From assembly GCA_902603925.1 (NCBI GenBank), contig CACKWQ010000002.1, positions 49,944 to 113,943 of the forward strand: a stretch of DNA of 64,000 nucleotides. Direction: 5' to 3'. The notes under the pieces are model-generated. The model was not told the origin of the DNA. It searched no databases and saw only the letters and a program-made list of their open reading frames with translations. Made by a program: the position numbers and the translations under genes. How positions within the stretch are numbered: position 1 is the first letter of the stretch; every line of letters starts with the position of its first letter. Positions 31,728 to 41,000 of this stretch are shown one piece after another. Origin of the DNA: an uncultured Pelagibacteraceae bacterium. Lineage in GTDB: Bacteria; Pseudomonadota; Alphaproteobacteria; Pelagibacterales; Pelagibacteraceae.

Positions 31728-32364
31728 TTTTTTTTCTCAAATTTGAAACTTTGATTGTAAGTGACATTTCATTTGTTAAACTTTTTTTTTCTTCGTAATC
31801 GAAGTCCCATTTTTTTAACGCTTCACTTAAAATTTTTTTTCCACTTCTGCCTAAAAATAAAATTATATATTTAAATTTTCTGAAATTTTTAAAAGCAATA
31901 TCGAATATGACAGGTAGAGGTTTAAACGCTCTCGCAATTATTATATCGGTCTCTAAATTTTTTTGTTCAAATATATTTTTTTGGTGAATTTCAGTATTTA
32001 AACTTAGTTTATTAGTTATATTCTTTAAGAAATTGCTTTTGTGGTAGCTTTTTTCATAAAAAATTACTTTAAATGAGGGATTTTTTCGTTTCATTAATAT
32101 CCCAAGGACTATGCCTGGCAGCCCTGCCCCGGAACCCAAATCTGTGCATACTTTTATATCATTTTTATCAACAAATTCAATAACTTGTGCACTATCTTCT
32201 ATGTGCCTTTTATTTATTGTTTTTTCCGTACTAGAGCTAATTAAATTGATCTTTTTGTTTCTCTCCAGTATTGATAAAGAGTATTCGTTAAGATCCTCTA
32301 ATGTTTCACGTGAAACATTTTTAATATTTAGTTTTTTAATTTTTATAAAATTCGAATCAATCAA
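31720..32364 (-). CDS. rsmG: 16S rRNA (guanine527-N7)-methyltransferase
   Basis: [45 protein letters not shown]. Confidence 0.97.
32302..32317. promoter_or_regulatory. parS centromere site, perfect
   Basis: TGTTTCACGTGAAACA, exact match to the canonical 16-bp parS palindrome, within rsmG. Confidence 0.95.
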
Positions 32365-34232
32365 GCTATATGCTTAATAGACTTTCTTTTAAGATGAGAC
32401 AACAAAATATATACTGCTGCAGGTGTTACTCCTTCAATTCTAAGTGCCTGTCCCATTGTCTTTGGTCTTATTTTTTTAAATTTAGATTTAATTTCGTTTG
32501 AAAACCCTGAAAATAAGTCATAATCAATATTTTTAGGAATTAACAAATTTTCATCTCTTTTAAATGCAAGAATATCAGCATTCTGCTTTTTTAGATAGCC
32601 ACTATAATGTGAATTTATCTCCAATTGATCGTCTATTTCACGTGAAACATACTTAATTTCAGGCCAAATTTCACGGATTTTTAACATATCTACAGATTTC
32701 TGACTTAGGATTTGATTTGCATTACGTTTTACGCCGTCTTTTGCAATGTTTACCCCGAATTTAGAGACTTTTGTGGGAGAAATGGTAAGTTTGCTCATTT
32801 TTGATTGAATCTCAGATAATTGAACAAATTTATCTTTAAATACTCTAAATCTTTCCTTTGATACAATTCCTATATCTGAGCCTTTTTGTGTTAATCTTAT
32901 ATCTGCATTATCGGATCTCAAAGAAAGTCTAAATTCAGCTCTTGAAGTGAACATTCTATATGGTTCTGCTACACCTTTTGTTACTAAATCATCGATCATA
33001 ACGCCTATATAAGCATCTGACCTGTTTAAAATAAAAGGTTCTTTTTTTTTTATACTTAAGGCTGCATTAGCGCCAGCAACCAGTCCTTGCGCAGCAGCTT
33101 CCTCATAGCCAGTTGTTCCATTTATTTGACCAGCTAAATAAAGATTTTTTATTTTTTTTGTCTCTAACGTTAAGAATAATTCTCTAGGATCAACAAAATC
33201 GTACTCTATTGCGTATCCTGGCCTCAATATTTTTACATTTTCTAAACCATTGATTTTACTACACATTTCTTGCTGTATGCCGTAAGGTAATGAAGTGGAA
33301 ATTCCATTTGGATAAATTGTGTGATCATTTAAACCTTCTGGCTCTAAAAAAATTTGATGTCTTTGCTTTTCTGAAAATTTTTTTATTTTGTCCTCTATAG
33401 ATGGGCAATATCTTGGACCTATGCCCTTGATGCTACCTGAATACATTGCACTTCTTTTCAAGTTCTCTGAAATAATTTTATGCACAGCTTCATTCGTATA
33501 AGTCATTCGGCAGGAAATTTGTTTATTTAAATTCTTTTTTGTTAAAAAAGAAAAGAAGTAAGGATCTTTATCAGCATGCTGCTCTTCTAAATTTTTAAAA
33601 TTAATTGTACGACCGTCAAGTCTAGGTGGGGTCCCAGTTTTTAATCTACCAATTTTAAAATCATACTTTTGAAGTTGCTCACTTAAGCCTGAAGAAGGTT
33701 TCTCATTAAATCTTCCAGCAGGTGTTTTGTTTTCACCTATGTGTATCAATCCGTTTAAAAAAGTTCCTGTTGTAAGAATAATCTTAGATGAATTAATTTT
33801 CTTTCCTGATTTAGTAATAACTCCTTTTATAGCGTTTTTTGAAAATATAAACTCATTCACGGGGTCCGAAAATATGCTTAAATTACAGTAGTTTACAAGC
33901 TTTTCTTGCATATATTTTTTATATAGAGATCTGTCACTTTGAGTTCTCGGTCCTCTTACTGCGGGACCTCTGCTTCTGTTTAACAATCGAAATTGAATAC
34001 CTGATTTATCAGCTACCTCACCCATCAATCCATCTAAAGCATCCAGCTCCCTAACTAGATGGCCTTTGCCCAGTCCACCAATAGCCGGATTACATGACAT
34101 TTCCCCTATAGTTTCAAATTTATGTGTAAGAAGCGCGGTGTTAACACCTATTCTAGCCGCCGCTGCTGCTGCTTCACATCCAGCATGGCCTCCACCAATA
34201 ACTATTACATCAAATGATAAATCATTTTTCAT
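32361..34232 (-). CDS. mnmG: tRNA uridine-5-carboxymethylaminomethyl modification enzyme MnmG (GidA)
   Basis: [47 protein letters not shown]. Confidence 0.98.
32634..32649. promoter_or_regulatory. second parS-like site (15/16)
   Basis: TATTTCACGTGAAACA, one mismatch to parS, inside mnmG. Confidence 0.8.
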
Positions 34233-34307: not shown

Positions 34308-35643
34308 CTATTTGCCTATACAGAAGTCATTAAAAATCGAACCTAAAATCTCCTCAACATCAATCTTTCCAACAATCATACCTAAATGTCTTGTGGCAAG
34401 TCGTAGATCCTCGGCAGCTTTATCAAAATCTCCTTCTGAGCTTTTACTTTTAAAATTTTCTAAACTTTCAACACACTTTTCTAAATTTTGTCGATGTCTT
34501 TCTCGAGTAATTATTGTATCCTCGTTAGACACAAATTTATTTTTTAATTTTCCTCTTATTGCAAAGATCAGTTTATCTAGGTTTTTTTCATCCTTTATTG
34601 AAATATAAATGGGGTTAAATTTACTTAACTCAGCTTCTATTTTTTTTATTCCTAAATCAGATTTATTTACAACCAAAACTGTTTTATCTGAGTTAACTAA
34701 ACCCCTCAAAACTCCTGTAAAATAGCCACTTTTAGGCTCTATAACAACAATATTTAAATCAGCATTTTCTGCTTTTTTGAGGGCTAATCTAATCCCTTTT
34801 CTCTCTATTTCGTCTTTTGCATCTCTTATGCCTGCGGTATCTGACAAAATAACAGGATATCCATCTAAATTTAAATGTGTTTCTACTACATCTCTTGTTG
34901 TGCCTGCAATCTCTGAAACTATTGCAACATCCCTCCTTGAAAGATAATTTAATAATGATGACTTGCCTGCATTTGTTGGGCCTAAGATGGCTATCTTAAA
35001 TCCCTCTCTAATTCTCTCCCCTACCTTTTGATCATTGATTACTTTTATAATGTCCTCTTTAACGTTTGATGTAATTTTTCTAATTTCGTCCAGAATGCTT
35101 TTAGGCAAATCGTCTTCAGGGAAGTCTATTATGGCTTCAATTCTTGACAAAGATTTTAAAAGTTTTTCTCTCCACTCCTCGTATTTTTTTTCCGTGGTGT
35201 CCAGACATTATTTCCATTGCTTGCCTTCTTTGAATTTCAGTTTCAGAAGCTATCAAATCTCCAATACTCTCCGCTTGAAGTAAATTTATTTTACCATTCA
35301 TAAAAGCAATCTTTGTAAACTCTCCTGGTTCTGCTAATCTAAAATTTTCTAATTTTGACAATGAATTTTGTATGGCTTCAATTATTGCTCTACTTCCGTG
35401 AATATGAAATTCGATCATATCCTCTCCTGTATAGCTTTGTGGTCCGGGGAACCATATAATTATACCTTTATCAATAATATCACCTGAGTTAATTTTATTG
35501 ATAGATTTAAGAGTTGCTACTCGTGGTTTCGGCAAAGAGCCTATTGTCATTTTTTTAAGAACTTTTAAACAATCAGACCCGGAAATTCTAATTACAGCTA
35601 AACCGGATATGCCGGGTCCAGAAGATAGAGCATAAATAGTCAT
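34308..35643 (-). pseudogene. mnmE: mnmE (trmE) split into two frames: N-terminal part 35137..35643, GTPase/C-terminal part 34308..35150+
   Basis: N part MTIYALSSGPGISGLAVIRISG..MEIMSGHHG; C part LSRIEAIIDFPEDDLPKS..GPTNAGKSSLLNYL..FCIGK*. The frame changes at an A8 tract (T8 on + strand, 35184-35191). Confidence 0.85.
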
Positions 35644-39998: not shown

Positions 39999-41000
39999 CT
40001 AATAATCTTTCACCAATTTAACTAGGTATTCAACCATACTAGGTTTTGTTTTGGGTAATACACCGTGTCCCAAATTAAATATATACGGATGATCTTTAAA
40101 CATATCTAATATTTTTTTTGTCTCTTTTTTAACTCTGTTTTTGTCGGTCAGCAATATCCTAGGATCTAATCCACCTTGAATCGGTATATCAATTTGCTTA
40201 GATAATTTTTTAATATCGATGTTATAATCAATATTTACTGCATCCGGTTTAACAACGCGAGTATACTCTTTATAGTTTTCTATATTTCTTGGGAAACAAA
40301 TAATTGGTACTTTTAAACTTTTTGTGTATCTAACCAGCTCTTGCGTTGGATTATAAATCAATCTAGGTAAATTTTTATTTTTAACTAAACCCGCCCAACT
40401 GTCAAAGATTTGTATTAGGGTTGCTCCACTTTCAACCTGATTTTTTATATGCTGCTTTGTAAAATATAGAATTTTTTTTAGTGTTTTTTTTACTAATAGA
40501 TCATCATTAATTAGGTTAGTAGAAATATTTTTTTTAGGAGATTTCCTATTAATCATATATACTAGCGTGGTCCATGGTGCTCCTGCAAAGCCAATGAGAC
40601 ATTTGTTTTTTCCTTTAAGCTTTACAGATAAAGATTTCATTGACTTATAAACTGGTTTTAGTTTTTTTTTAAAAGTTTTTTTATCGACCTTGTTGATATG
40701 AGAAAAATTTAGATCACCTAATATGGGTCCATAATTTTTCTTAAAGGTTACATTTTGACCTAATGCATATGGGGTCATTAATATATCTGAAAATATAATT
40801 GCAGCATCTAGATCAAATCTTTTTAATGGCTGAAGTGTTATTTTTGGGACTAACTTTTCGTTTAAACATAGATTTATAAAATTAGGGTTCTTTTTTCTAA
40901 TTCTTCGAAATTCAGGCAGATATCGTCCTGCTTGCCTCATCAACCATATTGGATTAATGTCGGTTTTTTTTTTAACAATTACTTTCCTAATTGGATCCAT
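39999..41000 (-). CDS. hemE: uroporphyrinogen decarboxylase
   Basis: PIWLMRQAGRYLPEFRRIRKK, IIFSDILMTPYALG, FAGAPWTTLVYMI. Confidence 0.97.
   Translation of the reverse strand: MDPIRKVIVKKKTDINPIWLMRQAGRYLPEFRRIRKKNPNFINLCLNEKLVPKITLQPLKRFDLDAAIIFSDILMTPYALGQNVTFKKNYGPILGDLNFSHINKVDKKTFKKKLKPVYKSMKSLSVKLKGKNKCLIGFAGAPWTTLVYMINRKSPKKNISTNLINDDLLVKKTLKKILYFTKQHIKNQVESGATLIQIFDSWAGLVKNKNLPRLIYNPTQELVRYTKSLKVPIICFPRNIENYKEYTRVVKPDAVNIDYNIDIKKLSKQIDIPIQGGLDPRILLTDKNRVKKETKKILDMFKDHPYIFNLGHGVLPKTKPSMVEYLVKLVKDY

Follow-up and report, generated by a model that had tools for sequence, protein, structure and literature searches.

Assembled mnmE of a draft SAR11 genome is split by one extra A in a homopolymer, probably an amplification or assembly error

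In the 64,000-nucleotide stretch of DNA that we analyzed (the window), the tRNA-modification gene mnmE changes frame by one base at a run of eight A, which raises the question of whether the cell carried a broken gene, a gene expressed in an unusual manner, or an intact gene that was altered on its way into the deposited file. The source genome (G000) is a draft of 843 kb in 39 contigs, is 63% complete and has a G+C content of 29.5%. The genomes nearest to it are AG-xxx single-cell assemblies of Pelagibacteraceae (SAR11); of the five that a genome search ranked closest, four (G153, G331, G304 and G159) have single-cell records. Based on its fragmentation, its completeness and the origin of these relatives, G000 is presumably a single-cell genome (SAG) itself. 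The features of the locus are as follows.

34308 to 35643, minus strand: mnmE (trmE), the gene for the tRNA uridine-5-carboxymethylaminomethyl GTPase, with its frame broken by a single base (PF12631 and identity to sister genes).
35137 to 35643, minus strand: N-terminal open frame of 168 aa, the last ~16 aa of which are out of frame (open reading frame list).
35184 to 35191, minus strand: A8 homopolymer, one A longer than the A7 (or shorter) run of the closest relatives (sequence and 107 relatives).
34308 to 35183, minus strand: C-terminal open frame with the remaining helical domain, the GTPase domain and CIGK (open reading frame list and translation).
32361 to 34232, minus strand: mnmG (gidA), the intact partner gene, a 623-aa open reading frame (open reading frame list).

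The single-base frame change is genuine in the deposited sequence. The run lies within mnmE and is exactly eight A long; on the minus strand its surroundings read ..CAC CAC GGA, then seven further A, then TACGAGGAGTGG.., and downstream of it the final 292 codons of mnmE are out of frame. The N-terminal frame ends in ..MSGHHGKKIRGVERKTFKIFVKN*, its stop about 16 residues beyond the run, and the alternative frame after the run reads YEEWREKLLKSLSRIEAIIDFPEDDLP.. and stays free of stops until NDFCIGK*, which ends at 34308. A tblastn search with the read-through MnmE as query returned two pieces, residues 1–163 and 152–444, in different frames. The initial annotation had reported a split of this kind, and the open reading frames, the translation and tblastn all agree with it; its further statements, that the GTPase domain and terminal CIGK are intact in the second frame and that mnmG is whole, were likewise confirmed by the stop-free second frame and the adjoining mnmG frame.

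Apart from the break, the gene is a typical MnmE. A profile search matched both pieces, with an E-value of 7.4e-41 for PF12631 (MnmE_helical) and a second, N-terminal match, and the full-length alignment to intact relatives showed the family's domain order of N-terminal domain, helical domain and inserted GTPase domain. The GTPase motifs GPTNAGKSS, DTAG and NKSD are present in the C-terminal frame, as is the terminal CxGK motif with its catalytic cysteine, and protein identity to intact sister MnmEs is 75–77%. The gene thus resembles other Pelagibacteraceae MnmE/TrmE genes (PF12631) in domain order, G motifs, CIGK and mnmE-mnmG neighborhood, but its closest relatives are all intact, each a single continuous frame where that of G000 is broken by one extra A.

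One reading of two stop-bounded frames is that MnmE is made as two separately translated chains, and the halves do roughly correspond to the N-terminal domain on one side and the helical plus GTPase domains on the other. However, the break falls inside a conserved segment, no relative is split here, and neither ATG nor GTG is available to start the C-terminal half. Its first 112 codons offer only TTG, ATT or CTG, and no clear ribosome-binding site was found ahead of any of these. We therefore consider a functional split very improbable.

The initial annotation had proposed comparing the length of the run in sister genomes. Relatives were retrieved with the C-terminal half only as the query, so that there was no retrieval bias against split genes, and the comparison set contained one genome per species. 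The frame was open across the site in all 107 relatives spanning the whole gene, with runs of A2 to A7, and the out-of-frame arrangement was seen in none of the 107. In the five closest genes (75–77% protein identity) the run was A7, or A5 where a codon had changed; it codes for two lysines (or Lys-Arg). A scan of 399 genomes of the genus found an MnmE match in 324, every full-length match being intact among the matches listed, and each of the full-span DNA matches checked was, modulo 3, one base different from the window. Only three of the 324 genomes (G000, G050 and G246) had an mnmE spread over two frames, each with its break at a different position, and in G050 and G246 the gene was in each case broken by one extra A inside an A run. 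The other short MnmE matches checked end at contig ends, except that of G046. On these sequence comparisons, which took in more than 400 relatives, the extra A at this site is private to G000.

The exception in G046 (contig 25, L167) is an mnmE that lacks its N-terminal half with no contig end nearby, possibly on a chimeric contig.

Because the extra base is private, conserved programmed slippage at this site is ruled out. The initial annotation had offered three origins for the break, of which sequencing or assembly error became the best supported and a recent mutation stood as a possibility, while slippage as a programmed feature found no support. In favor of programmed transcriptional or ribosomal slippage regulating MnmE, an A8 run is capable of slipping. 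In addition, MnmEG modifies the tRNA that reads lysine codons such as the two at the A8 run, and this makes feedback at the site thinkable. Against this, no relative is out of frame here, and the length of the A run is not conserved. The frame could be restored by ribosomes shifting +1, or in an mRNA one A shorter (or two A longer), whereas the usual −1 ribosomal shift on an A run yields the wrong (third) frame; here the initial annotation needs amending, as ribosomal slippage of the classic kind would not rescue the gene. Its description of A8 as a typical slippage substrate carries little weight, as the window has 98 coding A/T runs of at least 8 and no other frame break. We find programmed slippage hardly credible. 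Fainter still is the prospect of a real A8 under feedback, in which loss of MnmE would leave tRNA-Lys(UUU) under-modified, slipping at AAA AAA would increase, and some MnmE would be made as a result.

The reading that we prefer is that the eighth A is probably an amplification or assembly homopolymer error. A run of this length is nothing out of the ordinary here: the window has 63 runs of exactly 8 A/T, 56 of them within open reading frames, and the 98 coding runs include 10 of length 10 and two of length 11. Compared with the open reading frames of five sister contigs, no further frameshift besides that in mnmE was found in ~58 kb of comparable sequence, and none of the longer runs in the window (A9–A11) had a detected frame break. 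This counts against a homopolymer error, since slippage errors should favor the longer runs. Across ~328 kb in which G000 could be compared with its relatives there was one further frameshift, also an extra A, in the gene of a small CxxC protein (contig 1, ~67.3 kb; L179). The broken gene, at ~67,300, resembles DUF1178, an assignment that we presume from reading the sequence rather than from a profile search. With only this one other frameshift in ~328 kb, a systematically bad assembly is ruled out.

The published workflow that produced this collection of single-cell genomes gave 3.0 indels per 100 kb in the SCGC benchmark (PMC11247762; also PMC8443664), a rate at which ~2 would be expected in the 64 kb window and ~25 in the whole assembly, so no further cause is needed for the A8. 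The densities observed here, one in ~58 kb of the window and two in ~328 kb of the genome, do not exceed this rate; the ~0.5 frameshifts per 100 kb seen are fewer than the benchmark of 3 per 100 kb, which is a point against the error reading. In other respects the mnmE lesion is like the homopolymer indels described for SAGs (PMC11247762): it is an isolated one-base change in an A run, it is private to one assembly, lesions of its kind occur at low density, and they recur at different places in sister assemblies.

In the sister genome G153, the homolog of window positions 39999–41000 carries one extra A. In a comparison of 108 non-redundant loci (~493 kb comparable), the transcription terminator gene rho of L099 is broken by an extra T, and the rho genes of L052 and L064 have an extra A at an identical E-K-K-P site; the same A9 is present in L071. 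SAG-type assemblies had six A/T-run frameshifts in ~1.14 Mb of comparable sequence. With the same scan, none was found in ~807 kb of comparable sequence from G314 and G098, two closed, single-contig genomes that may not be isolates; at the draft-assembly rate ~3.5–4.2 would be expected there (Poisson p ~0.01–0.03). The A/T-run frameshifts that we saw were all single-base insertions (nine of nine, with no deletions), a bias for which the present data offer no explanation.

A pattern scan of the rho E-K-K-P site found A9 in three genomes (G060, G079 and G256) versus ~90 with an in-frame A8. The extra A occurs at the same site in three different SAR11 species, probably as a recurrent homopolymer error. 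A special hotspot in rho was considered and set aside, as three of ~91 genomes is suggestive but was noticed post hoc and in assemblies of the same type.

The main competitor to an error is a genuine A8, the product of a recent slippage mutation in the lineage that would leave a possibly leaky, near-null mnmE. A runs are natural indel hotspots, and the gene shows no decay. When dN was measured against the sisters and two outgroups, neither mnmE half had a clearly raised value, and there is no second lesion, so that an old pseudogene was rejected. The break, if real, would thus be very recent, and halves that are otherwise intact and evolving like the genes of the sisters are as expected of such a mutation; the same absence of decay is also in keeping with an error. 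Moreover, several bacteria can live without mnmE. Frameshift alleles bypassed by A-run slippage occur among AT-rich endosymbiont genes. With a real A8, slippage by RNA polymerase (a transcript with one A fewer or with two A more) or a +1 ribosomal shift at AAA AAA A would still yield some full-length MnmE. In E. coli, a gene whose 8A repeat had an inserted or deleted A retained activity at basal expression (PMC3812077), and by such bypass MnmE would not be wholly lost if A8 were real. Those M.HaeIII 8A variants (PMC3812077) are similar to the present case in having a one-base change in an A8-type run of an otherwise intact gene; here, however, the extra A is private to one genome, and bypassing an insertion would take the loss of an A from the transcript, which is the rarer event. 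Slippage of transcripts in A/T runs mostly produces insertions (PMC5574713), which would rescue deletions in the DNA and not insertions, so that selective tolerance fails to predict the insertion bias. A further argument against a real A8 is that similar lesions, those in rho included, lie scattered across draft single-cell assemblies but not in the two closed genomes. On balance we regard a real mutation as possible but rather unlikely.

An amplification or assembly error accounts for the private extra A, as relatives have A7 at most, and for +1 A/T-run lesions that recur in sister assemblies but are missing from the two closed genomes. Most likely, then, the extra A is real in the deposited file and absent from the chromosome of the cell. 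We infer an in vitro origin: one A would have been added to the A7 run of mnmE by polymerase slippage in whole-genome amplification, or in the assembler consensus, and in the living cell mnmE would be an ordinary intact gene of 444 residues adjoining mnmG.

These findings advise caution with AT-rich single-cell genomes, in which about one detectable A/T-run gene break can be met per 100–200 kb. Such breaks in SAGs should not be taken as pseudogenization or recoding without reads, and gene-loss calls in SAR11 surveys would be affected, "mnmE absent" and "rho broken" being two examples.

A frameshift of another kind was observed in G314, a closed, low-G+C genome of the SAR11 genus. On its contig 1, at ~140,244 (L202), a G9 run throws an acyl-CoA-synthetase-like gene out of frame, which could reflect phase variation or an error. 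The G000 homolog of this gene (C2, 16430–18145) reads GGTGGTGGA at the corresponding place.
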